Positions 24,456-42,733 of a stretch of DNA of 64,000 nt are shown here, one piece after another. Below the pieces are notes generated by a model. The model had not been told where the DNA came from, made no database searches, and saw only the letters and a list, made by a program, of their open reading frames with translations. The number at the start of each line of letters is the position of its first letter. The first letter of the stretch is position 1. The position numbers and the translations under genes are program-made. This stretch comes from Stella humosa (GTDB lineage: Bacteria > Pseudomonadota > Alphaproteobacteria > ATCC43930 > Allostellaceae), in assembly GCF_006738645.1 (NCBI RefSeq), contig NZ_AP019700.1:1-64000 (forward strand), read 5' to 3'.

Positions 24456-25025
24456 TCACCCGTGATGACGGCGGGCGTAGGCGGCGAAGTTCTCCAGCTG
24501 GGCCTTGATGATGCCGCGGGTGGTCTCGTCGGTCAGCGTGTCGGTGGCCGCATCCACCTTGGTGTGGACGGCGCCGATGATCACCTCGGGCTTGTTGAGG
24601 ATGCGGGCGTCCAGGAACACCATCGACTGGCGCAGGTGGTACTGGCAGCGCACGCCGCCCAGCGGGCTCATGGAGGCGGTCTGGATGGCGATCGGCTTGC
24701 CGGCGAAGGGCTGGTTGGGCAGGCGCGACAGCCAGTCGATGGCGTTCTTCAGCCCGCCCGGGATCGAGTAGTTGTATTCGGGCGAGATGATGATGACCCC
24801 ATCGGCCGCGCGCACGGCGTCGGCCATGGCGGTCACCTCGGCCGGGAAGCCCTCGGCCTGGATGTCGGCGTCGTAGATCGGCAGCGCGCCGACCGAGGCC
24901 AGCGGCTGGATGGTGACGTCGGCCGGGGCCAGGCCCGGCAGCGCGCGGGCGACGATGCCGTTGAAGGACGCCTTGCGCAGGCTGCCCAGCATGACCGCGA
25001 AGGTGATCGGTCCGTCCTTGCTCAT
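24456..25025 (-). CDS. NADPH-dependent FMN reductase (flavodoxin-like fold)
   Basis: 189 residues with the family signatures GSLRKASFN (phosphate loop, about residues 14-22) and SPEYNYSIPGGLKNAIDWLS (flavin loop). Such enzymes reduce FMN, quinones or chromate with NAD(P)H. It is the last gene of a minus-strand operon after an amino-acid-type ABC transporter, 33 bases from the permease. A flavin reductase there could feed a two-component monooxygenase or simply be redox protection; none is adjacent. Confidence 0.9.
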   Translation of the reverse strand: MSKDGPITFAVMLGSLRKASFNGIVARALPGLAPADVTIQPLASVGALPIYDADIQAEGFPAEVTAMADAVRAADGVIIISPEYNYSIPGGLKNAIDWLSRLPNQPFAGKPIAIQTASMSPLGGVRCQYHLRQSMVFLDARILNKPEVIIGAVHTKVDAATDTLTDETTRGIIKAQLENFAAYARRHHG

Positions 25026-25058
25026 CCGTGAATCCTCGATGTTATGGCTTGGTGCGGC

Positions 25059-25730
25059 TCAGCGCCCGGCCAGCATGCGATGCTCCAGGCGCGACAACAG
25101 CCGCACGAAGGGCCACAACAGCACGAAGTAGAGGATGGCGGCCAGCACGATCGGCGAGGGGTTGTAGGTCAGCGACTGTGCCTGGCGGGCGGCGAACAGC
25201 AGCTCTGGCAATGCCACCACCGAGGCGAGCGAGGTCAGCTTCACCACCTCCAACGTGTTGCCCACCAGGTCGGGCAGGACGTTGCGCACCGCCTGCGGCA
25301 GCACCACCCAGGCCATGGCGCGCCCGGCCGACAGGCCGGTGGAGCGCGCGGCCTCCATCTGGCCGCGCGGCACGCTCTCGATGCCGGCCCGCAGCACCTC
25401 GCCGTAATAGGCCGACGTGTTGAGGAAGAAGGCGATGGCAACGGCCGCGAAGGCGCCGATCTCGAGCCCGGCGAAGGGCAGGCCGGCATAGAGGAAGATC
25501 AGCAGCACCAGGGGCGGGAAGGCGCGGAAGAAGTCGACATAGAGGATGAGCGGCCAGCGCACCCGCCGCCGCGGGCTGCGATAGAGCAGGGCGACGCCGA
25601 GCCCGCCGGCCACCCCCAGCGGCACCACCAGGGCCACCAGCAGCAACGTCGTCCACAAGCCCTGCAGCAGGTAGGGCAGGGCCGCCTGCATGATGGCGAG
25701 GTTGAGGAAGGTTTCCGCGAAGCCCGGCAT
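25059..25730 (-). CDS. Polar amino-acid-type ABC transporter permease
   Basis: 223 residues of a HisMQ/GlnP-type permease. Five predicted membrane segments, the N-terminal LPYLLQGLWTTLLLVALVV, FFRAFPPLVLLIFLYAGLP, and the EAA loop EAARSTGLSAGRAMAWVVLPQAVRNVLP that contacts the ATPase. Together with the second permease upstream (7 bases) it forms a heterodimeric channel. The start is ATG at 25730. Confidence 0.9.
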   Translation of the reverse strand: MPGFAETFLNLAIMQAALPYLLQGLWTTLLLVALVVPLGVAGGLGVALLYRSPRRRVRWPLILYVDFFRAFPPLVLLIFLYAGLPFAGLEIGAFAAVAIAFFLNTSAYYGEVLRAGIESVPRGQMEAARSTGLSAGRAMAWVVLPQAVRNVLPDLVGNTLEVVKLTSLASVVALPELLFAARQAQSLTYNPSPIVLAAILYFVLLWPFVRLLSRLEHRMLAGR

Positions 25731-25737
25731 GGCGCCT

Positions 25738-26427
25738 CTATCGCTTCCAGGCGTAGCGCGTCTCGACCCAGCGGCCGAACAGCACTACGGGGAAGAAGAG
25801 GATGATGTAGGCAGCCGCCCCCAGCGTCAGCGGCGAGGGGTTGAACGAGAAGGAGACGGCGGTCTGCGCCTGGGCCAGGATCTCGGACACGGCCACCACC
25901 GATCCCAGCGCCGTGCCCTTGGTGATGGCGATGGTACGGTTGGTGAGCGGCGGGATGGTGAGCCGCAGCGCCTGCGGCAGCACGACATGGGCCAGCGTGG
26001 CCGCGAAGCCCAGGCCGGTCGAGCGCGCGGCCTCCCACTGCCCCTTCGGCACGGCCAGGATGCCGGCCCAGAAGATCTCCTCGGCGAAGGCCGACAGGAC
26101 CAGCGTCAGCGCCAGCCAGGTGGCGACGAAGCCGGACGGGCTCCAGCCGGCATTGGGCATGGCGAAGTAGAGCAGCACGATGACGACCAGCGGCGGCAGG
26201 GCGCGGAACAGGTCGACATGGAGCACGATCAGCAGGTTGAGCGGCCGGATGCGCAGGCTGCGCAGCAGCGCCAGCGCCAGCCCGAGCGCCAGCCCCGCCA
26301 GCACCACCAGGATCGCCAGCCACACCGTGACGAAGAAGCCCGACACGATGTCCGGCAGGTAGCGCGCCATCACGGCGGCGTTGAAGAAGGTCTCCGCGAA
26401 GCGGTCCCACTGGCTCACGGCCGGCAC
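25738..26427 (-). CDS. Polar amino-acid-type ABC transporter permease
   Basis: 229 residues, paralogous to the neighbouring permease: DIVSGFFVTVWLAILVV, LFRALPPLVVIVLLYFAMP and EAA loop EAARSTGLGFAATLAHVVLPQALRLTIPP. GTG at 26427 or a second GTG three codons later (26418) may be the start. It begins 22 bases after the ATPase gene. Confidence 0.88.
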   Translation of the reverse strand: MPAVSQWDRFAETFFNAAVMARYLPDIVSGFFVTVWLAILVVLAGLALGLALALLRSLRIRPLNLLIVLHVDLFRALPPLVVIVLLYFAMPNAGWSPSGFVATWLALTLVLSAFAEEIFWAGILAVPKGQWEAARSTGLGFAATLAHVVLPQALRLTIPPLTNRTIAITKGTALGSVVAVSEILAQAQTAVSFSFNPSPLTLGAAAYIILFFPVVLFGRWVETRYAWKR

Positions 26428-26449
26428 CCGCCCTGGCGACCGGTCGCGC

Positions 26450-27196
26450 TCAATGGCGCACGAGTTGTTCGACGAAGGCGCGCGTGCGGGCGTGCTGCGG
26501 GGCGCCGAAGACCGCGGCCGGCGGCCCCTGCTCGACGATCACGCCCTGGTCCATCACCACCACCCGGTCGGCCGCCGCCCGCGCGAAGCCCATCTCGTGG
26601 CTGACCACGACCATGGTCATGCCGGCCTCGCGCAGGTCGCGCATCACCGCCAGCACGCTGCCGACCAATTCCGGGTCCAAGGCCGAGGTCGGCTCGTCGA
26701 ACAGCACCGCCTTGGGCTCCAGCGCCAGAGCGCGCGCGATGGCGACCCGCTGCTGCTGCCCGCCCGACAGCTCGTTGGGATAGGCATCGCGCTTCTCGGC
26801 CAGGCCGACGCGCGCCAGGGCGGCGGCGGCCATGGCATCGGCCTCCCGCCGGTCCTTCTTCAGCACCTGGCGGAGCGCCAGCGTGACGTTCCCGGCCGCC
26901 GTCATGTGCGGGTAGAGGTTGAAGTTCTGGAACACCATGCCGATGCGCCGGCGCACGCCGTTGATATCGGTGCCGGGCGCCAGGATGTCGGTTCCGTCGA
27001 AATGGATCGACCCGTCGCTCGGCACCTCCAGCCGGTTGCAGCAGCGCAGCAGCGTGCTCTTGCCCGAGCCGGACGGGCCGATGACGAAGACCAGCTCGCC
27101 CGGGGCCACGTCCAGGTCTATGCCGCGCAGCACCTCGACCGCGCCGAACGACTTGCGCAGCCCCCGGATGGACAGGACGGGTGCCGCGCGCGGCAA
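26450..27196 (-). CDS. Polar amino-acid-type ABC transporter ATP-binding protein
   Basis: 248 residues with Walker A GPSGSGKST (about residues 40-48), Q-loop MVFQNFNLYPH, ABC signature LSGGQQQR, Walker B AVLFDEPTSALDPE and switch His in VVSHEMGFA. The GlnQ/HisP type is clear. The best start is a TTG at 27196, five bases after the binding-protein stop; the next in-frame candidates are not better. A weak start may lower its translation. Confidence 0.92.
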   Translation of the reverse strand: MPRAAPVLSIRGLRKSFGAVEVLRGIDLDVAPGELVFVIGPSGSGKSTLLRCCNRLEVPSDGSIHFDGTDILAPGTDINGVRRRIGMVFQNFNLYPHMTAAGNVTLALRQVLKKDRREADAMAAAALARVGLAEKRDAYPNELSGGQQQRVAIARALALEPKAVLFDEPTSALDPELVGSVLAVMRDLREAGMTMVVVSHEMGFARAAADRVVVMDQGVIVEQGPPAAVFGAPQHARTRAFVEQLVRH

Positions 27197-27201
27197 GGGC
27201 G

Positions 27202-28044
27202 TCAGCCGCAGCTAGGCGTGTGGGCGGTCGCCTCGTATCCCGGCAGGTCGGGCACGCCATAGCCGGGGAACACCGTCCGCTCGGCCGCATCGGCCGCCGG
27301 CGCCACGCCGAACCACTTCTCGGACAGCTTGGCGACGGTGCCGTCCAGCTTCATGCACTCCAGCGCCTCTTCCACCTGGTTGCGGAGCGCGCCGCTGGCC
27401 TTGGGGAAGGGCGCGCCCCAATGGGCCCGCGTCTCGTTCAGGGCCAGGCCCAGCTCGACCTGCGGGTTGCGCTTGGCGGCCCAGGCCAGCACCGTGTTGC
27501 CGGCGAGGTTGGCATAGGCGCGGCCGGCGATCACCGCCTGGATGGCGTCGGTGTTGGTATCGAAGGACTGCACCTCGAAGCCGTACTTCTCGGCATTGGC
27601 GCGCGCCCAGGAATCATAGGCCGATCCCTTGTTGACGCTGACGACCTTGCCCTTCAGCTCCTCCAGCTTGGCCACCTGCGGGCTGCCCTTGCGGATCAGC
27701 AACTGGTACTGCGTGTAGAGGTAGCCCTCGGTGAAGAGCAGGCTTTCGGCGCGCTCCTTCGTCACCGTCACGGGGGCGGCCAGGAAGTCGTAGCGGCCGG
27801 CGTTCATGGCCGGGATCAGGCCCGAGAACGAGGCCGAATCGATCTGGATCTCGCGCTTCATCCGCCGCGCGACCTCGATGAAGAGGTCGATGTTGAAGCC
27901 CTCGACCCCGCCGCCCATCTTCGGCATCGCGTGGGGGGCGAAGGTGCCGTCGACGGCGACCCGCAGCGGCGGCTGCTGGGCCGCGGCCGTGCCGGCCAAG
28001 CCCAATGCCATCAGTGCCGCGGCCGCAATGGAAAAGCGGTTCAT
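27202..28044 (-). CDS. Amino-acid ABC transporter substrate-binding protein, family 3
   Basis: 280 residues with a signal peptide (MNRFSIAAAALMALGLAGTAAA) and the SBP_bac_3 fold: LRVAVDGTFAPHAMPK, VEGFNIDLFIEVARRM, MNAGRYDFLAAPVTVTKERAESLLFTEGYL, and LKGKVVSVNKGSAYDSWA. It captures a polar amino acid or related compound. The Met at 28044 begins the signal peptide; a longer frame from 28104 would put 20 polar residues in front. The DUF1028 gene lies 70 bases upstream on the same strand. Confidence 0.92.
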   Translation of the reverse strand: MNRFSIAAAALMALGLAGTAAAQQPPLRVAVDGTFAPHAMPKMGGGVEGFNIDLFIEVARRMKREIQIDSASFSGLIPAMNAGRYDFLAAPVTVTKERAESLLFTEGYLYTQYQLLIRKGSPQVAKLEELKGKVVSVNKGSAYDSWARANAEKYGFEVQSFDTNTDAIQAVIAGRAYANLAGNTVLAWAAKRNPQVELGLALNETRAHWGAPFPKASGALRNQVEEALECMKLDGTVAKLSEKWFGVAPAADAAERTVFPGYGVPDLPGYEATAHTPSCG

Positions 28045-28114
28045 CCCCTGGCTCCCCGTTCGTTGGTGGTTTCCCGATCTGCCGTCTTGCGCAGCAATCG
28101 ACATGCCAGCCGGG

Positions 28115-28891
28115 TCAGGCGCCGGCGGTCTTGCCGCCGGACTTCGCCTTGGCTTTCGGCTTGGCTGCAGGCTTTGCGGCCTTGGCCCGTTCCTTCTCCT
28201 GGCGCGCGACGGCGGCCTCGATCACCTTCCAGTCGGTGACGCCGGCCGGGTTGGCGCGGGTCGCCGTGAACTGGCGCATGACGGCATAGCGCCTCTCGGA
28301 CACCTGGTAGAGCCGGCGCAGCTCGGCCAGCGGTTCCGGATGGTCGTCGACCCGCAGGTCGAGCTGGGCATATTCCTCGCCCGCGAAGATCAGGAGGGCG
28401 GCGGACTGGCGGCCGCGCTTGTCGCCACCGGCTGCCTGGCCGGCATCGAGCGCCCGCAGCAGCCGCTCGGCCAGCGGCAGCCGCCGGCCGGACTGATAGA
28501 CGCGCATCGTCTCGGCCACCACCTCGGGGCCGGCCAGCATGTTGCCGGCGATCGACACGTTCTCGGCCGCCAGGTGGCCGCACCAGGGAATGCAGGACGG
28601 GCCGGTCCATTGGCCGGTCGAGCCGTCGCGGTCGACGACATGCACCTGGCGGTGGTCGCGGCCCGAGTCGGCATCGGTCAGCAGCCGGACCACGTCGGCC
28701 GCGGGCACGCCCGCCTCCAGCAGGGCAAGGCCGCGCCGGCCATAGAGCGGGTTGGACAGCGCCTGCGTCGAAAGGGCGCCGATTCCGCTCAGGATGAAGG
28801 GGCAGCGCGCGCCGACGGCGAATGCGCGCGTGGTGACGGCGACGGCAAAGGCTCCGGCCTTGGGGTCGCGGGCGACGATGGACCAGGTCAT
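28115..28891 (-). CDS. DUF1028 protein, predicted Ntn-type hydrolase, with Lys/Ala tail
   Basis: 258 residues. DUF1028 hallmarks are the N-terminus MTWSIVARDPKAGAFAVAVTTRAFAVGARCPF (in pieces), GIGALSTQALSNPLYGRRGL, RDHRQVHVVDRDGSTGQWTG and VSIAGNMLAGPEVV. Thr2 directly after Met could become the N-terminal nucleophile after Met removal, as in Ntn-hydrolases; this is inference from the family. The C-terminal 35 residues are a Lys/Ala/Pro low-complexity tail. It probably leads the amino-acid ABC transporter operon, suggesting hydrolysis of an amide or peptide linked to amino-acid uptake. No signal peptide is seen. Confidence 0.87.
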   Translation of the reverse strand: MTWSIVARDPKAGAFAVAVTTRAFAVGARCPFILSGIGALSTQALSNPLYGRRGLALLEAGVPAADVVRLLTDADSGRDHRQVHVVDRDGSTGQWTGPSCIPWCGHLAAENVSIAGNMLAGPEVVAETMRVYQSGRRLPLAERLLRALDAGQAAGGDKRGRQSAALLIFAGEEYAQLDLRVDDHPEPLAELRRLYQVSERRYAVMRQFTATRANPAGVTDWKVIEAAVARQEKERAKAAKPAAKPKAKAKSGGKTAGA

Positions 28892-28986
28892 GGCGCGAGC
28901 ATAACCCGCCCGCCTCCTCCCGCCCATGCGCTTCGAGGAATGGGGATCGGTTTGCCGTCAGCCCCCAGGGGTGGTATCGGATTCCC

Positions 28987-29577
28987 ATGCGCGTGCCGAT
29001 TCCCCCCACGGCACTGATGGCAATCCTGCTGGCGGCCCTGTTCGTCGCCGGCCCCGTCCCCGTCTCCGCCCAGGTGGAGACGCAGGTTGCCGCAGTGGCC
29101 AGACCCAGTTCGGAGCGGGTGAAGCTGCCCCAGGCGAAGCCGTCCAAGCCGGCCAAGCCGTCGCGGATCGCCAAGACCTCCGGCAAGGCCAAGGCCTCCA
29201 AGAGCGCCAAGGCACCCAAGACCCTCCGGTCCGCCCACATGGACCCGGGCCGGCCCTGCGGCGGCGCCGACGTGGCGCCGTACCGGCAATCGGGCCGGGC
29301 GCACTATTACGGCGTGCGCCACCACGGCCAGCGCACCGCTAACGGCGAGGAATTCGACATGGGCGCGCTGACCGCGGCCCACCTGACCTTGCCGTTCGGC
29401 ACCCGGGTGCGCGTGACCAACGTCTCCAACGGCCGCTCGGTCGTGGTGCGCATCAACGACCGCCACGCGCGGCGCACGCCCAAGATCATCGACCTCAGCC
29501 GGGGGGCGGCCGACAGCCTGGGCTTCCGGCGCAAGGGCGTCACGATGGTGCGGCTGGCGGCGGTCTGCGGCGGCTAG
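28987..29577 (+). CDS. RlpA-like septal ring lytic transglycosylase / DPBB-domain protein
   Basis: 196 residues: signal peptide (MAILLAALFVAGPVPVSA), a Lys/Ser/Pro-rich linker of about 50 residues (KPSKPAKPSRIAKTSGKAK), and a C-terminal double-psi beta barrel typical of RlpA. The barrel has GRAHYYGVRHHGQRTANGEEFD, LTAAHLTLPFGTRVRVTN, VVVRINDRHARRTPKIIDLSRGAAD. RlpA cleaves naked glycan strands at the septum. There is no SPOR domain and no lipobox Cys at the signal end. Its last 38 bases overlap the convergent HyuA gene. Confidence 0.88.
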   Translation: MRVPIPPTALMAILLAALFVAGPVPVSAQVETQVAAVARPSSERVKLPQAKPSKPAKPSRIAKTSGKAKASKSAKAPKTLRSAHMDPGRPCGGADVAPYRQSGRAHYYGVRHHGQRTANGEEFDMGALTAAHLTLPFGTRVRVTNVSNGRSVVVRINDRHARRTPKIIDLSRGAADSLGFRRKGVTMVRLAAVCGG

Positions 29578-31114
29578 CCCGCCGCCCCAATATCCCCACC
29601 ACCCGCACCCGCACCCGCAGCGCGTTGCCCGGCAGGTAGGCCAGCGGGATATCCTCCACCTCGATCGTCTGCAGCGTGGCGGCGTCGGCGCCGGCCGCGA
29701 CCGCCCGGTCCTGGGCCAGGCCGGTGGCGGCGGCGACCGCTTCGGTGCGGCCCATCCCTTGGAACACCTGGTCGATCTCGCCCGAGACCTGGGCGATGGC
29801 CGCCCCCACCGCGTTGGCGCAGTCGCCATGGGTGACGCGCACCACCTGGCTGGTGCCGGCGACCGCGTCGGGCACCAGGAAGGCGCCGCCGCCGACCGCG
29901 ATCAGCGGCAGGGGGGCGGAATCGGTCTTCATGCGGTCGACGTTCTCCTCGACCATGGCATGGGCGCGGGCCAGCATGCGCCCGATCAGTGCCGGGTCCA
30001 GGTGGGCGACGCGGGCCCGGTCGCCCAGCTCCAGCATGCCGGCCGCGACCGCCACGTCGCTCGTCGTCAGGCGGCTGCCGCCGAACACCAGGGCCTCGGT
30101 CGTCAGGCGGTGGCCGACGCTGAGCGGGCCCACCACGTCGCCGTCGGCCTCCACATGGCTGCCGCCGCCCAACCCGATCGACAGCAGGTCGGGCATGCGG
30201 AAGAGCGTGCGCACGCCGCCCACCTCGACCACGCCGTTGGCCTCGCGCGGGAAGCCGTGGCGGAGTTGGCCGATGTCGGTGGTGGTGCCGCCGACGTCGA
30301 TCACCATGGCGTCGGCGATGCCCGACAGGAAGGCCGCGCCGCGCATGGAGTTGGTGGCGCCCGACGCGAAGCTCAGCACCGGCTGGCGCATGGCGTGGGC
30401 GGCCAGCATCACCGTGCCGTCGTTCTGGGTGATGTAGAGCGGCGCCTTCAGGCCGCTCTCGGCGATGGCGGCCTCGAAGGCGGCCACCGTCTCCCGCGCC
30501 AGCTCGGCCAGGGCGGCGTTCATCAGGGCCGCGTTCTCGCGCTCCAGCAGGCCGATCCGCCCCAGCTCGTGCGAGCAGGTGATGGCGGCGTCGGGAATGA
30601 TGGTGCGCACGATCTCCGCCGCCTCGGTCTCGCAGGACGGGTCGATCGGCGAGAAGACGGAGGCAATGGCGACGGCCTTCAGCCCGGCCGCGGCGAAGCG
30701 GTGGGCGGCGGCCGTGACCGCGGCCCGGTCGAGGGGCATGAAGGGCCGGCCGTCATAGTCGTGCCCGCCCTCGACCATCGCCACCTCGCCGCGCACCAGG
30801 TCGGCCAGGGCCGGCGGCCAGTCGCAGAAGGGCGGCAAGGTCGCCCCCGCCGGCAGGCCGATGCGCAGCGCGCCCACCCGGTTCAGCGAGCGGCCCTGGA
30901 CGACCGCGTTGATGAAGTGGGTGGTGCCGATCATCACCGCGTCGATCGGCTGGCCGGTCACTTCGGGAAAGCGCGACAGCGCCTTCAGGGCCGCCAGGAT
31001 GCCGCCGGTCACGTCGGCCGTGGTGGCGGTCTTGACCGCGCGCACGACGTTGCTGCCGGCGATCAGCACCGCATCGGTGTTGGTGCCGCCGACATCGATT
31101 CCAATCCGTCGCAT
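29540..31114 (-). CDS. Hydantoinase/oxoprolinase family protein (HyuA-like)
   Basis: 524 residues. It has the Hydant_A N-terminal domain with RIGIDVGGTNTDAVLI (residues 3-18), IGTTHFINAVVQ, and the Hydantoinase_A domain with the second phosphate motif MVIDVGGTTTDIG and GLGGGSHV. Family members are ATP-dependent ring-opening hydrolases of hydantoins or 5-oxoproline. The ATG at 31114 has GGAG nine bases upstream and sits five bases after the DUF917 stop; the open frame upstream is a shadow. No separate HyuB subunit is adjacent. Its 3' end overlaps the rlpA-like gene by 38 bp. Confidence 0.9.
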   Translation of the reverse strand: MRRIGIDVGGTNTDAVLIAGSNVVRAVKTATTADVTGGILAALKALSRFPEVTGQPIDAVMIGTTHFINAVVQGRSLNRVGALRIGLPAGATLPPFCDWPPALADLVRGEVAMVEGGHDYDGRPFMPLDRAAVTAAAHRFAAAGLKAVAIASVFSPIDPSCETEAAEIVRTIIPDAAITCSHELGRIGLLERENAALMNAALAELARETVAAFEAAIAESGLKAPLYITQNDGTVMLAAHAMRQPVLSFASGATNSMRGAAFLSGIADAMVIDVGGTTTDIGQLRHGFPREANGVVEVGGVRTLFRMPDLLSIGLGGGSHVEADGDVVGPLSVGHRLTTEALVFGGSRLTTSDVAVAAGMLELGDRARVAHLDPALIGRMLARAHAMVEENVDRMKTDSAPLPLIAVGGGAFLVPDAVAGTSQVVRVTHGDCANAVGAAIAQVSGEIDQVFQGMGRTEAVAAATGLAQDRAVAAGADAATLQTIEVEDIPLAYLPGNALRVRVRVVGILGRRASRRRPPPAAPS

Positions 31115-31119
31115 CGCCT

Positions 31120-32220
31120 TTACTCCGCCGCCGTCGGCGCGAAGACCGATCGGAACTCGATGTCGTAGCCGAATGCCCGGGGGCCCACATGCTCCAGCCC
31201 CTTGGGCGTCATCAGGATCGGCGGGGCGGGCAGCGCCACCACCGCCACGCGCTGGCCGTAGCGCAGGGTCTCGGTGCCGATCGCCTCGCCCGTCACGGCA
31301 TCCAGCACGCAAATCAGGTCGGGCACGGTCGCGACCGGCACGCCGTCGCGCCAGGCGACCGCCCATTCGTTCTGGAAGGCGATCTCCATGCGGGCGCCGC
31401 GGTCGCCGTCCAGCCCTTCGATGGTGGCGGTGCCACGCAGGAAGCCCTCGGTCGTCCGCCGCGCGATGTCCGACACCTTGCCCGCGAACAGGCGCAAGCC
31501 GCCCTCGGCCTCCAGGATGGCCGCGATCGGGTCGCTGTGGCGGCGCTGGGCCGCGCGCACGGCGCGGCCCAGGCCGATCGCCTTGGTGGTGGTGTGGTGG
31601 ATCGCCCAGTCCTTCACCTCGCGGCCGGTGCGCGGCGCCTTGCAGGTGGACGCGACCGAGCCCAGCTCGACGCAGGCCTTGCGGCTGACGCGCTCCATCC
31701 ATTTCCAGGTGGTGACGCGGGCGACGATCACTTCCTGCCCGCGGCAGTCGGCCATGGAGAGCGGCCAGGGCTGCAGGTCGCCGATGGCGAAGCTGGTCAT
31801 CTGCGCCTCGGGGAAGGCGCGGCCCATGCAGTCGGCATCGACCACGGGGATGCCCAGGTGGGCCGCTGCCATCAGGGGCTGGATGGCGTTGCCGCCGCCG
31901 ATCTCCAGCGACATGACGGCGCGGAACTTGCGGCCCTGGTAGCGCTCCATGATCTCGACCGCGCGCGCGACGGTGCGGCTGTCGGTCAGCCGCTCCTGGC
32001 CGACCAGCGGCGCACCCATGTTGGAGACGACGGCGACGTCGTCGTCGTCCGCCAGGTCGAACGGGTCCATCAGCGAGACCTGGCGGCCCTCGGCATAGAG
32101 CTGGCGCATGTTCAGCAGTCCCAGATAGGGGCTGCCGCCGCCGCCGGTGCCGAGAATCCAGGCACCAACCGCCAGCGATTCGATGTCTTCCAGGGGGATC
32201 GGGGTGGTGCGCACGGTCAC
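31120..32220 (-). CDS. DUF917 family protein (S-methyl thiohydantoin desulfurase-like)
   Basis: 366 residues with DUF917 features: LEDIESLAVGAWILGTGGGGSPYLG at the N-terminus, VVSNMGAPLVGQERL, SLEIGGGNAIQPLMAAAHLGIPVVDADCMGRAFPEAQM (in pieces) and FQNEWAVAW. The family is named in domain databases for S-methyl thiohydantoin desulfurase activity, and members often neighbour HyuA genes, as here. GTG start at 32220: the GTGA overlaps the AroM stop by 4 bases, so translation is coupled. Its role with AroM and HyuA in breaking down a (thio)hydantoin-like ring is inference. Confidence 0.9.
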   Translation of the reverse strand: MTVRTTPIPLEDIESLAVGAWILGTGGGGSPYLGLLNMRQLYAEGRQVSLMDPFDLADDDDVAVVSNMGAPLVGQERLTDSRTVARAVEIMERYQGRKFRAVMSLEIGGGNAIQPLMAAAHLGIPVVDADCMGRAFPEAQMTSFAIGDLQPWPLSMADCRGQEVIVARVTTWKWMERVSRKACVELGSVASTCKAPRTGREVKDWAIHHTTTKAIGLGRAVRAAQRRHSDPIAAILEAEGGLRLFAGKVSDIARRTTEGFLRGTATIEGLDGDRGARMEIAFQNEWAVAWRDGVPVATVPDLICVLDAVTGEAIGTETLRYGQRVAVVALPAPPILMTPKGLEHVGPRAFGYDIEFRSVFAPTAAE

Positions 32221-32894
32221 AGGAACATCTCCCGGAGGATGGCGGCGGTGGTGGTGATGCCCAGCAGCACCGGGCAGGACAGGCGGCGGCGCACGGCGGC
32301 GCGGTGGGCCGGCGTGTAGCTGATGCAGTCCATGACGACCAGATCCGGCCGATGGGCGGCCATGCGGTCGCCAGCCGCCATCGCCTCGGCGTCGTCGGCC
32401 AGCGGCAGCAGCGCCTCGGCCACCACCTCCAGCCCCGGGCGCTCCCACTTGGCGGCCAGGGCCCCGGTCTGGGCCGGCAGCGGCACCAGCAGGCCCAGCC
32501 GCCCGGCCGGCAGCAGCCCGTCCGCCAGGCCCGACAAGAGGGCCGAGGGGAAGATGACGACGCCGGCAGGCTTCAGGCCGGGGAAGGCGCCGGTGCAGCA
32601 CATCAGGGTGGCGCCCACGCCCGCCTCGGCCGCGAAGCCGTCGACCAGCGCCTGGGCGCGCGTGGTCACCAGGCGCTTGGACAGGACGGCACCGCTGCCG
32701 TCCGGCAGCTTGGTGAACAGCGTGTCGCCGTCATCGACCGGCGGCACGGCCGCCATCTCGTCCCGCGACAGGCCGTCCATGCAGCCGACCAGGCGCACGC
32801 GCGTGCCGGGCCCGACGGCGGCCTGCAGCAGGGCGGCCACATCCGGCCGCGGCGATTGCCCGATGACGATCGCCGCCAGCGTCCGCTCCTCCAT
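32217..32894 (-). CDS. AroM family protein (Asp/Glu/hydantoin racemase superfamily-like)
   Basis: 225 residues. It shows the AroM N-terminus (AIVIGQSPRPDV) and two cysteine motifs placed as in the Asp/Glu/hydantoin racemases: MCCTGAFPGL (Cys99/Cys100) and MDCISYTPAHR (Cys190). These could be the two-base cysteines of a racemase. The AroM family itself has no firm biochemical function. GGAG precedes the ATG at 32894; the longer frame upstream to 32978 runs into the divergent promoter region. First gene of a three-gene operon with DUF917 and HyuA. Confidence 0.85.
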   Translation of the reverse strand: MEERTLAAIVIGQSPRPDVAALLQAAVGPGTRVRLVGCMDGLSRDEMAAVPPVDDGDTLFTKLPDGSGAVLSKRLVTTRAQALVDGFAAEAGVGATLMCCTGAFPGLKPAGVVIFPSALLSGLADGLLPAGRLGLLVPLPAQTGALAAKWERPGLEVVAEALLPLADDAEAMAAGDRMAAHRPDLVVMDCISYTPAHRAAVRRRLSCPVLLGITTTAAILREMFL

Positions 32895-33010
32895 TCCCGA
32901 ACTCCTTCTCCCGCGGGGGGCCGCATGGCGGCGCTCTGTCGGCAAGGTTAGCACGGCGCGTGCCGGGCCACTCGCCATGGCCGCCGGCAGCCTGATATCG
33001 TCCGATCGCC

Positions 33011-33511
33011 ATGACCGATGTCCCCGAAACTGCCTGGCGGATCGTGCCGCTGGCCGACCGCCCCGACCTCGTCCCGCCGCTGGCCCGGGCGCTGTGGGAA
33101 TTCTGGGGCGCCACCTTCCCGCAGAAGACGGTGGCGGTCCGCACCGCCAGCCTCGAGGCCCGGATGAACCACGACCGCCTGCCGCTGGCGGTGGTGGCCG
33201 TGGCGCCGGACGGATCGGCGCTCGGCACCGCCAGCATCATGGCCGACGACATGGAGACCCGGCCCGACCTCAACCCGTGGCTCGCGACCGTGTTCGTGCT
33301 GCCCGGGCAGCGCAGCCGTGGCCTGGGGGCGGCGCTGTGCGCGGCGGCCGAGGCTGAGGCATGGCGCCTGGCGATCCCGCGCCTCTATCTCTTCACCTTC
33401 GACAAGCGGGGCTACTATGCCGGGCTCGGCTGGCGCGACCATGAGACGGTCGATTATGCCGGCCAGCCCACCGCGATCATGGTCAAGGACCGTCCCGCCC
33501 GGCCGGCGTGA
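33011..33511 (+). CDS. GNAT family N-acetyltransferase
   Basis: 166 residues of the GNAT fold, with the acetyl-CoA loop in NPWLATVFVLPGQRSRGLGAALCAAAEAEA (motif A, R/QxxGxG/A near residues 98-104) and the C-terminal LYLFTFDKRGYYAGLGW. Transfers acetyl groups from acetyl-CoA to an amine; acceptor unknown. It is divergent from the aroM operon with 116 bases between, so it may share its control region. Confidence 0.88.
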   Translation: MTDVPETAWRIVPLADRPDLVPPLARALWEFWGATFPQKTVAVRTASLEARMNHDRLPLAVVAVAPDGSALGTASIMADDMETRPDLNPWLATVFVLPGQRSRGLGAALCAAAEAEAWRLAIPRLYLFTFDKRGYYAGLGWRDHETVDYAGQPTAIMVKDRPARPA

Positions 33512-33577
33512 GCGCCCGGCGCTTGTCCCGCCCGGCCGGGCTACCTATCCTCGCCGCCGGATAAAAGGGGAGGAACC

Positions 33578-34449
<872 letters not shown>

Positions 34450-39607: not shown

Positions 39608-41479
39608 TCACATGATGACGAAGTCGCCGGAGTTGTTGCCGGTCGGGCCTTCGTTCAGCTTGTCGAGCTGGCTGACGGCGGTGATGTTGTTGAAGACGGC
39701 GATCAGCTCCGCGCCCGCGGTGCTGGTCATGTCCTCGTCGAAATACATCTCCGCCTGGTTCGTGCTGGTATTGAAGAAGATGTAGAAGCCGGGCTTGTTG
39801 TTGTCGGCAGCACCTTCCGACAGGAACGTGTCGAACTGCGCCAGGTCGGAATAGCCCTGGCCCGTGGCGATCAGCAGGTTGTCGTTGGCCGTGCTGCCGA
39901 CGCCGGTCGTGCCTTTGTAGCCGTCAATCGCTGCCATGCCGCCGAAGTTGTTGCCGTTGAAGACCAGCAGGTCGACACCGCCGGTGAAGTCTTCCAGCGA
40001 ATCCACCGACTCGAACGGGCCGTCCATCATGAACTGGTCGGAGCCGGCACCGCCTTCCAGCTCGTCATCGCCATAACCGCCGACCAGGGTGTCGTCGAGC
40101 GCGCCGCCGATCAGGGTGTCGTTCTCCTGGCCGCCGAACAGCTCGTAGGTGCCGTTGGTCTCGCGCGAGGCATCAAGGTAGTCCTCGCCCTCGTTGCCGA
40201 ACACCACCATCGACTCGCCGGCCGCGACGTTGCCGTCGGCGAAGACGACGTTGTCCTCATCCTGGCTGAAGTTGACCGTCTCGAAGTTCTTCAACGACAG
40301 GTCGCGGAGCTGCTGGTCGGTCGTGCCGTTGAACGAGATCTCGTCGTCGCCGTCGCCGCCATCATTGGCGTCGGTGATGAAGAGGCCGCGCTCATAGGTG
40401 ACCGTGTCGTCGCCCTCGCCGCCCTCGACCGTCACGGCGGCATTGGGGAAGATCCCCTCCGAGCCGATGCCCGAGGTGTCGCCGACATAGATCGAATCGT
40501 CGCCGCCACCGCCCAGCAACTGCTTGTCGCCGACCGAGCCCTCGGCGATGCCGATGGTATCGTCGTCATCCCCGCCGTCGAACGTGTCGTCGCCGAAGTT
40601 CTGGCCGATGATGCTGTCATTGCCACCGTCGCCGAAGACCTGCACGTCGCCGGCATTGGCCTCCAGGTTGGCGATGTCGTTGTTCTCTCCCAGGTAGACG
40701 ATGTGATCGCCCGTGGTCGAGATGATGTTCACCAGGTCCTGCAGCTTATCCATGTAGATGAGCTTGTCGCCGGTGTCGCTGTCGCCGACCGTCACGGTGT
40801 CGTTGCCGTTGCCGGCGAAGATCGTGTCGTTGCCGACATCCGGGTCGATGACGTCGTTGCCGGCACCGCCGTACAGGATGTCGTTGCCGGCCCCGCCATA
40901 GATCTGGTCGTTGCCGAGGTCGCCCGCGACGTTGTCGTTGCCGGCCCCGCCCAGCAGCGTGTCGTTCTCCTGGCCGCCATAGACCGAATCGTTGCCCGCG
41001 CCGGCGACCACGAAATCGGCCCCGGTGTTGCCATAGACGCGGTCGTTGCCGTCACCGGTCGAGATCGTGTCGGCACCACCAAGGCCCCACACCTGCACCG
41101 ACTGCGTCGTGCCGGCCAGGATGGTCACGTCGTTGCCCGCGTCGTCCGTCAGCGTGTCGGTCAGCCGGTCGCCGACCCAGAGCTGGCCACCATTCGACAG
41201 CACGATATTGGCGCTGGCCGGCGTCGGATCGTCGCCGCCGATCTGGCGTGCCAGCATGTTGGGGATGTAGGCGTACCGAATCTCGCCCGCCGGCAGCGGC
41301 GCCCCGTTGATGTCCCGCGACTTGACGATCGCGATGTCGGTCCCGTTCTCGACGATGTCGAACTGCTGGGCCTGGAGGGCCGGATCGGAGATTTGCAGCA
41401 CGTCCGAGCGGAAGTCGAACGTCTGGCCGAGAATCTTGAGATCGAAATTCGACGATCCGTTCCAACTGAAGATTGCCAT
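39608..41479 (-). CDS. RTX/hemolysin-type calcium-binding repeat protein
   Basis: 623 residues, very acidic and Gly/Asn/Asp-rich, with no signal peptide. An N-terminal domain of about 120 residues (FDLKILGQTFDFRSDVLQI) of unknown function is followed by tandem GGxGxDxxx nonapeptides at about 132-228, dispersed copies around 275-330, and another block at about 452-488 (GGQENDTLIGGALDDTLVGG). The C-terminus ends in GDFVIM, an Asp followed by hydrophobic residues, as in type I secretion substrates. No type I secretion genes are nearby. AAGGAAG precedes the ATG at 41479. It could be a surface or S-layer-like, adhesin or matrix protein. Confidence 0.88.
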   Translation of the reverse strand: MAIFSWNGSSNFDLKILGQTFDFRSDVLQISDPALQAQQFDIVENGTDIAIVKSRDINGAPLPAGEIRYAYIPNMLARQIGGDDPTPASANIVLSNGGQLWVGDRLTDTLTDDAGNDVTILAGTTQSVQVWGLGGADTISTGDGNDRVYGNTGADFVVAGAGNDSVYGGQENDTLLGGAGNDNVAGDLGNDQIYGGAGNDILYGGAGNDVIDPDVGNDTIFAGNGNDTVTVGDSDTGDKLIYMDKLQDLVNIISTTGDHIVYLGENNDIANLEANAGDVQVFGDGGNDSIIGQNFGDDTFDGGDDDDTIGIAEGSVGDKQLLGGGGDDSIYVGDTSGIGSEGIFPNAAVTVEGGEGDDTVTYERGLFITDANDGGDGDDEISFNGTTDQQLRDLSLKNFETVNFSQDEDNVVFADGNVAAGESMVVFGNEGEDYLDASRETNGTYELFGGQENDTLIGGALDDTLVGGYGDDELEGGAGSDQFMMDGPFESVDSLEDFTGGVDLLVFNGNNFGGMAAIDGYKGTTGVGSTANDNLLIATGQGYSDLAQFDTFLSEGAADNNKPGFYIFFNTSTNQAEMYFDEDMTSTAGAELIAVFNNITAVSQLDKLNEGPTGNNSGDFVIM

Positions 41480-41767
41480 GGGAACTTCCTTATCTACTTC
41501 CTGCGCTGAGCTGCGAGCCAGCCGCCGTCGCCGCGCGCTCGAACCGGCCATCTCTCGCTTGTCGCGGCGGGACGGCTCGGCGGTGGGATGGACTAGGCCC
41601 ACCCGGACGGGCTCATGGGGCGAACCGCCCCGGGCGCCATTGGTTCCCGCCGTCATACCTAAATTCAGTGTAACGTTCGGAACGGGTTCTGTGGCGAATC
41701 GGCTCCGCGGCAATCGGCTTTCGGCTACAATGGGCGCCATTCGGCAACCCATCGGAGCCAGCGCCAG

Positions 41768-42733
<966 letters not shown>

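Follow-up and report, generated by a model that had tools for sequence, protein, structure and literature searches.

The first 64,000 bases of contig 1 (bases 1-64000) of the 5.83 Mb genome of Stella humosa, referred to here as the window, carry on the reverse strand a run of three coupled genes encoding an AroM-family protein, a DUF917 protein and a short HyuA-like protein, which are examined here as a candidate operon for the catabolism of a cyclic amide or ureide. The following features make up the run:

32217..32894, reverse strand: AroM-family protein of 225 amino acids, putative two-cysteine racemase/epimerase (Cys100, Cys190), assigned by PF07302, an AlphaFold2 model, the 5lg5 fold and a cysteine alignment
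31120..32220, reverse strand: DUF917 / S-Me-THD-like protein of 366 amino acids with a GTG start, usual partner of short HyuA and proposed hydrolase subunit, assigned by PF06032 and PF20906
29540..31114, reverse strand: short HyuA-like ASKHA protein of 524 amino acids, proposed ATP-dependent amide-activating subunit, assigned by PF05378 and part of PF01968
32217..32220, reverse strand: 4-base overlap (GTGA) of the AroM stop and the DUF917 start, read directly from the sequence
31115..31119, reverse strand: 5-base gap between the DUF917 stop and the HyuA start, read directly from the sequence

AroM covered the full PF07302 model (E = 1.4e-57), the DUF917 protein matched PF06032 (1.2e-55) and PF20906 (2.7e-72), and the HyuA-like protein matched positions 1-175 of the 176 in PF05378 (E = 2.6e-38), its best stretch on PF01968 spanning only positions 1-176 of 291. 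Direct reading placed the DUF917 stop codon (TAA) at 31122-31120 and the beginning of the HyuA ATG at 31114, and the coupled three-gene layout described in the original prediction was borne out by this reading together with the Pfam families. The third-position GC is strong in all three genes (0.94-0.96), indicating that all of them are coding. No Rfam family reached the gathering threshold in window positions 28000-34000, and no sigma-70 or terminator patterns were seen in positions 29300-33200.

Conservation of the three-gene neighbourhood

Eight DUF917 queries run against public genome contigs yielded at least 495 DUF917 stretches, the best 80 of which were taken as loci; they represent the closest relatives rather than a random sample, each fetched locus reaches up to about 10 kb on each side, and several misses correspond to short contigs. 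The co-occurrence survey proposed with the original prediction found the trio kept as neighbours in related genomes, with AroM, DUF917 and HyuA all present within 61 of the 80 loci. A short HyuA (>200 bits) was held by 75/80 loci and an AroM or AroM domain by 65/80, AroM being present in 64/80 with a wider query set. The DUF917-HyuA spacing was -4 to +9 nucleotides in 67/76 loci, and the end of AroM lay no more than 33 bases from the first aligned DUF917 residue in 38/62, 34-4000 bases upstream in 17 and downstream in seven. An unbroken run of genes for an IclR regulator, two permeases, an SBP_bac_8 binding protein, an ATP-binding cassette (ABC) ATPase, AroM, DUF917 and HyuA was observed in 14 of 23 Bradyrhizobium loci. 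The closest named relatives among the matches listed were Stella vacuolata ATCC 43931 (DUF917 91% identical) and Stella sp. ATCC 35155 (88%).

Among 240 genomes of the class, AroM was detected in 11 (a number to which one weak, partial match and AroMs of the fusion type contribute) and DUF917 in 21; 10 of the 11 AroM genomes also carried DUF917 (Fisher p = 2.6e-11), and in nine the two genes lay within about 4 kb of each other, as judged from coordinates read by eye. Tandem arrays of two or three DUF917 genes, preceding or following HyuA, were seen in L097, L102, L105, L109, L118, L125, L146 and L165, and such copies perhaps form a hetero-oligomer.

The AroM fold, its cysteine pair and the LuxR fusions

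The AlphaFold2 model of AroM (pLDDT, the predicted local distance difference test, 95.8) falls in the racemase fold. The top Foldseek match was the allantoin racemase 5lg5 (E = 1.2e-6, template modelling (TM) score 0.62), other close folds were aspartate racemase (1jfl), arylmalonate decarboxylase and maleate isomerase, and all of ranks 1-29 bore titles of the Asp/Glu/hydantoin racemase superfamily, except rank 6, a protein of unknown function. An hhalign comparison of the AroM profile with five annotated racemases, four of which were checked as PF01177, gave a probability of 93% and set AroM Cys100 on racemase Cys79 and Cys190 on Cys184. The score against PF01177 itself was 11.7 bits, under the cut-off of 31. 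A profile search of the PDB returned hydantoin and allantoin racemases with weak values (E = 0.035-0.29), an unrelated esterase coming next (0.65), and a single-sequence search of the PDB returned no matches.

The window AroM has cysteines at 99, 100 and 190. An alignment of 88 AroM rows was assembled (77 standalone and 11 with a C-terminal extension), in which three standalone fragments lack the cysteine positions, leaving 74 comparable proteins; Cys100 was present in 73/74 and Cys190 in 74/74, the exception at position 100 being E. coli (Ser100). The original prediction had placed Cys99/100 and Cys190 like the cysteines of the racemases: Cys100 and Cys190 do align with the racemase pair, and Cys99, shared by only 6/74 standalone AroMs, was discarded as a member of it. 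From its sequence and predicted structure, AroM is thus a putative two-cysteine enzyme of the racemase superfamily.

Other chemistry known in the superfamily has to be weighed here, with AroM as a cis-trans isomerase like maleate isomerase, or a decarboxylase, and HyuA-DUF917 acting on a lactam, lactone or imide devoid of a racemisable centre. Maleate isomerase and arylmalonate decarboxylase are indeed among the top folds, and maleate isomerase also has two cysteines. We nevertheless consider this explanation unlikely, as the best PDB profile matches, weak as they are, were hydantoin and allantoin racemases, and as plasmid operons of Aureimonas, Rhizobium and Shinella combine a binding-protein ABC importer, HyuA and DUF917 with a PF01177 racemase, no AroM being found in them. 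The racemase gene occupies in these three operons a position different from that of AroM in Bradyrhizobium; its presence supports a racemase step, not as a general rule. The idea that PF01177 racemases generally take the place of AroM was rejected: they occurred in 3/10 HyuA-holding plasmid loci (from 15 chosen regions), but in none of the 80 loci and near only 1/20 short-HyuA genes of the 16 class genomes described below.

A second form of AroM is fused to a LuxR-type domain. In the following six fusions both racemase cysteines are lost and the gene is divergent from a DUF917 operon:

L020:9319-10398, forward strand: AroM-LuxR fusion, LuxR domain by Pfam
L021:11905-12999, reverse strand: AroM-LuxR fusion, LuxR domain by alignment
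L025:5974-6966, forward strand: AroM-LuxR fusion, LuxR domain by Pfam
L026:8871-9800, reverse strand: AroM-LuxR fusion, LuxR domain by Pfam
L118:8839-9846, reverse strand: AroM-LuxR fusion, LuxR domain by Pfam
L144:6983-7897, reverse strand: AroM-LuxR fusion, LuxR domain by Pfam

The LuxR-type (GerE) domain was thus identified by Pfam in five fusions and by alignment in L021, and six others were called by length and kinship. Both cysteines are gone in all of the fusions (n = 12/12, 11 aligned and one from a Ketogulonicigenium plasmid); in the 11 aligned proteins, position 100 is Met (n = 7) or Ser (n = 4) and position 190 is Ser (n = 10) or Ala (n = 1). Across 73 standalone AroMs, 26 further positions show conservation of 95% or higher, and 12 of these (G12, P15, R16, G37, D40, P52, T61, T101, G102, G134, P138 and P208) are kept in 11/11 fusions. 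All 12 fusion genes are transcribed divergently from the DUF917 gene or its operon. In a tree containing 10 of the 12, the fusions form one clade (100/97 support) beside two-cysteine AroM paralogues, which ruled out an independent, repeated loss of the cysteines, and within this clade the loss has been kept through a long divergence. The AroM domain of the fusions is probably an enzyme turned sensor and may still bind a ligand of the pathway without turning it over. The window genome has no fusion, its sole AroM match being the operon copy.

A different departure from the cysteine pair was found in an unselected sample of 398 genomes of the phylum, 14 of which carried AroM. Two of them are the window's AroM and that of genome G066, both with two cysteines; among the other 12, five have two cysteines and seven have Ser100 and an altered GQ.PR motif, all of the latter coming from one family (f183) and grouping with E. 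coli AroM. The loci of this type are:

L171-L174 and L176-L178: enterobacterial-type AroM, Ser at 100, degenerate GQ.PR motif
L058:3429-4106: aroM of E. coli K-12, of the same type

The name-giving E. coli AroM is therefore probably not a two-cysteine racemase, as far as its sequence tells, and with its Ser100 and changed GQ.PR motif it is a poor guide to the two-cysteine AroMs.

Plasmid-borne AroM genes were also found with DUF1177 in L140, L141 and L142, near genes for an aminopeptidase, dipeptidase PepE, an OPT transporter or dipeptide-type ABC components, and in L025 AroM accompanies Peptidase S51, DUF1177, DUF917 and HyuA. These contexts speak for a role in peptide salvage, in which AroM would racemise a free amino acid derived from peptides and HyuA-DUF917 would repair or open cyclic by-products (succinimide, pyroglutamyl-like compounds or cyclic dipeptides). 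We allow this reading only a small chance, since DUF1177 is present in 0/80 loci of the window type and the commonest importer there is not of the peptide type: SBP_bac_8-type binding proteins occur in 50/80 loci and the peptide-type SBP_bac_5 in 29/80. A haloarchaeal plasmid operon (L140:6986-12171) was seen to hold DUF917, DUF1177, AroM, an aminopeptidase and an Asp/Glu racemase in this order, AroM and a PF01177 racemase being found together. On two Firmicutes plasmids a permease annotated as a cytosine permease adjoins HyuA-DUF917; the cytosine permease family also contains hydantoin carriers.

Short HyuA and its DUF917 partner

The window HyuA was searched in 16 class genomes selected for holding DUF917 or AroM, and it produced 20 full-length short-HyuA matches of at least 514 bits, the next match reaching only 118.5 bits. 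Short HyuA adjoined DUF917 in 19 of the 20 cases, the exception being G163, where the genes are on different contigs. In the phylum sample, for which at most three HyuA candidates were scored per genome, all the HyuA matches at E <= 1e-60 (n = 13/13) adjoined DUF917, and 15 of the 16 DUF917 matches of at least 176 bits adjoined a short HyuA (the miss being G554), as did none of the weaker DUF917 matches (n = 0/10, none scoring above 103 bits and one falling short of the cut-off). Both samples together, minus three shared cases, place DUF917 next to 29/30 short HyuA genes. No HyuB was found within 10 kb, or up to the contig end, of 18/19 HyuA-DUF917 pairs of the class; HyuB genes exist elsewhere in all 16 genomes, the one nearest to the window operon lying at C1:544714. 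A second short HyuA-DUF917 pair of the window genome (G000:C1:1459363-1461980, L029) has no AroM and stands a few kb from an SBP_bac_5 peptide-type importer.

The short HyuA proteins (n = 99, 98 of them distinct) measure 510-539 amino acids, and both DxGGT phosphate motifs are retained in 99/99. The N-terminal domain and the phosphate motifs of HyuA are present, whereas the GxxPGP motif, a full C-terminal part and the HyuB partner are missing (the names of both motifs come from the accessible text of PMC8453981). The original prediction had called the protein ATP-dependent and of hydantoinase/oxoprolinase type; PF05378 and DxGGT sustain the relationship, but the protein belongs to a short and separate subfamily without HyuB or GxxPGP, so the name 'ATP-dependent hydantoinase' should not be transferred to it unchanged.

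For DUF917, the original prediction had proposed the removal of sulfur from a thiohydantoin, which would first be racemised and, after desulfuration by DUF917, be converted by HyuA through ring opening into an N-carbamoyl amino acid. The proposed step rests on the family name, its Pfam family being named after S-methyl thiohydantoin desulfurase. The window protein scored 118.8 bits on the NCBIfam desulfurase model NF058532 (cut-off 450) and 88.9 bits on NF058529 (cut-off 440), and three other HyuA-linked DUF917 proteins scored 86-119 on these models. A Deinococcus DUF917 (L169) came much nearer, with 295.5 and 394.9 bits respectively, yet it was also below both cut-offs; its neighbours are an aromatic-amino-acid lyase, urocanate hydratase, amidohydrolases and a Zn hydrolase. 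Lyase and urocanase-type neighbours are present at L169 and L160, whereas tblastn searches with one lyase and one urocanase query found homologues of the Deinococcus genes in 0/80 loci.

A tree of 66 DUF917 rows separated two lyase/urocanase-linked rows and one haloarchaeal row from the rest, the window protein included, by a branch with 100/100 support, although long branches were flagged and the deep order is uncertain. D128, R134, R180, N284, E285 and D301 are common to the window type and to both lyase/urocanase-linked rows, a likeness that counts in favour of desulfuration, whereas all of 55 HyuA-linked rows carry E106, N111, D130, E176 and R254, positions at which both lyase/urocanase-linked rows have other residues (E106, D130 and E176 also occur in some HyuA-free rows). 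Given the family cut-offs, the neighbours and the tree, desulfuration by the window DUF917 was discarded as unsupported, and we regard the whole thiohydantoin route as highly improbable.

The DUF917 model (pLDDT 89.5) had one close solved structure in the fold search, the uncharacterised protein 2o3i, and the candidate homology of DUF917 to HyuB was accordingly rejected.

Adjoining the operon, on the reverse strand of the window (24456-28927), lies a cluster of DUF1028, an SBP_bac_3 binding protein, an ATPase, permeases and a flavin mononucleotide (FMN) reductase, the ATPase and the second permease having been assigned by eye. Its FMN reductase shares 58% identity across 163 residues with the one adjoining DUF917 in L125, and a cluster with an FMN reductase of the L125 type is present in 13/80 DUF917 loci. 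On the same strand, a long open reading frame (39608-42085) has many glycine/aspartate-rich repeats, which we take to resemble the calcium-binding RTX type.

Proposed ring opening and comparison with known systems

We put even chances on the window run being an operon for the breakdown of a cyclic amide or ureide that the cell imports, in which AroM would epimerise the substrate and HyuA-DUF917 would open it, DUF917 standing in HyuB's place. We infer the enzymatic steps, a HyuA-DUF917 complex and the substrate as follows. The transporters, the kinship of HyuA and the racemase fold of AroM point to cyclic amides or ureides in which one centre can be epimerised, such as an imported hydantoin-like ring or cyclic dipeptide, whose stereo-forms AroM would interconvert at the ring alpha-carbon. 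Short HyuA, of the ASKHA fold, would use ATP to activate the ring amide as a phosphoimidate, and the translationally coupled DUF917 would hydrolyse the activated ring; DUF917 is proposed as the hydrolase because HyuB is missing nearby and DUF917 is coupled to HyuA. No sulfur chemistry would take part, and the sulfur displacement at a ring carbon ascribed to the branch that gave the family its name would be chemically compatible, by analogy, with a hydrolytic role of DUF917. A paralogue of AroM in a sister lineage would have lost both cysteines, gained a LuxR-type domain and probably come to sense the pathway ligand. For caprolactamase and related enzymes, PMC8453981 and PMC5214803 give a presumed division of labour, in which the HyuA-type subunit transfers a phosphate to the amide oxygen and hydrolysis of the ring activated in this way falls to the HyuB-type subunit. 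The wider proposal, that short HyuA and DUF917 constitute a HyuB-free class of ATP-dependent ring-opening enzymes, with AroM as dedicated epimerase and its cysteine-less AroM-LuxR twin as the ligand sensor of the operon in sister lineages, is more tentative, and we rate it somewhat below an even chance.

Several observations weigh against the ring-opening reading. The GxxPGP adenosine motif is absent from all 99 short HyuA proteins and present in 5/7 distinct long ones, so ATP use by short HyuA is not assured. DUF917 has no recognised fold in common with HyuB, and desulfurase activity is known for another branch of DUF917 only. HyuB is not always distant: 5.9 kb from the second HyuA-DUF917 pair of the window genome lies a HyuB with a long HyuA of its own, and HyuB homologues occur in 6/80 loci, where each is accompanied by a separate long HyuA and the distance to the short HyuA is 3.8 kb or more. 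AroM was missing from 16/80 loci with the wider query set, showing that the HyuA-DUF917 core does not always depend on it. The rarity of PF01177 racemases near short-HyuA genes noted above counts in the same direction, as do the periplasmic binding proteins that appear among the AroM fold matches from rank 30 on (TM 0.3-0.4). In the fusions, 14 of the 26 other conserved positions vary as well, P116 being lost in 11/11, and since these proteins share one origin the cysteine loss is one event and not twelve. An N-carbamoyl-amino-acid hydrolase was not recognised as a recurrent neighbour, many clusters being unidentified, and no published test of an AroM activity was found.

If the ring-opening reading is correct, HyuA-DUF917 would constitute an amidohydrolase that depends on ATP and lacks HyuB, the name 'thiohydantoin desulfurase' would be misleading for HyuA-linked DUF917 proteins, and AroM-LuxR would be a sensor with a dead racemase pocket, through which inducer screening could reveal the substrate. 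The role of AroM is directly testable, as the standalone form (cysteine pair), the E. coli type (one cysteine lost) and AroM-LuxR (both lost) can be compared; the cysteines being kept, lost once or lost twice, the predicted behaviours are racemase, something else and binding only.

The gene name aroM dates from the 1980s, a 1986 title being among the references in the accessible part of PMC11055893. That paper (2024), in the same part, reports hydantoin racemases, DUF917 and AroM as enriched in cyclodipeptide-oxidase clusters without a cyclodipeptide synthase, and suggests an isomerisation activity for AroM and a hydantoinase activity for DUF917. The headline of the original prediction is therefore not new, and its claim of novelty for a racemase role of AroM was overstated, although no settled AroM function was found in print. 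In titles and the beginnings of abstracts, with most subscription journals outside this coverage, nothing appeared on an AroM-LuxR fusion with double cysteine loss, on the short HyuA family or on a HyuA-DUF917 pairing that replaces HyuB. The cyclodipeptide-oxidase clusters of PMC11055893 resemble the loci described here in joining the AroM and DUF917 families and in their peptide-type importers, and differ in that neither LuxR fusions nor the HyuA-DUF917 pair appear in the accessible part of the paper. No cyclodipeptide oxidase was recognised among 10 window proteins scanned with Pfam, in which no search was aimed at PF19585 (CDOA/CDOB).

S-methyl thiohydantoin and thiohydantoin desulfurases belong to a catabolic pathway of the ergothioneine type. 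The window DUF917 shares with them the family and several invariant residues, but it is far below both equivalog cut-offs, lacks lyase/urocanase neighbours and is separate in the tree. AroM is similar to the Asp/Glu/hydantoin/allantoin racemases of PF01177 in fold (5lg5, 1jfl) and in the register of the two cysteines, whereas its own family (PF07302) and the sub-threshold PF01177 score given above set it apart as a putative racemase. With the HyuA/HyuB hydantoinase, the caprolactamase CapAB and 5-oxoprolinase, the window type has in common the HyuA N-terminal domain, both DxGGT motifs, a coupled cluster and an expected activation of an amide by ATP; it differs in a HyuA of about 520 rather than about 690 amino acids, in the missing GxxPGP motif (0/99) and in having DUF917 instead of HyuB. 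Finally, the fusions resemble the BzdR type of 'enzyme turned regulator', as described in the accessible part of PMC3602430, in joining an enzyme-fold domain to a DNA-binding domain, whereas here a racemase-superfamily domain that has lost both putative active-site cysteines is combined with a LuxR helix-turn-helix.

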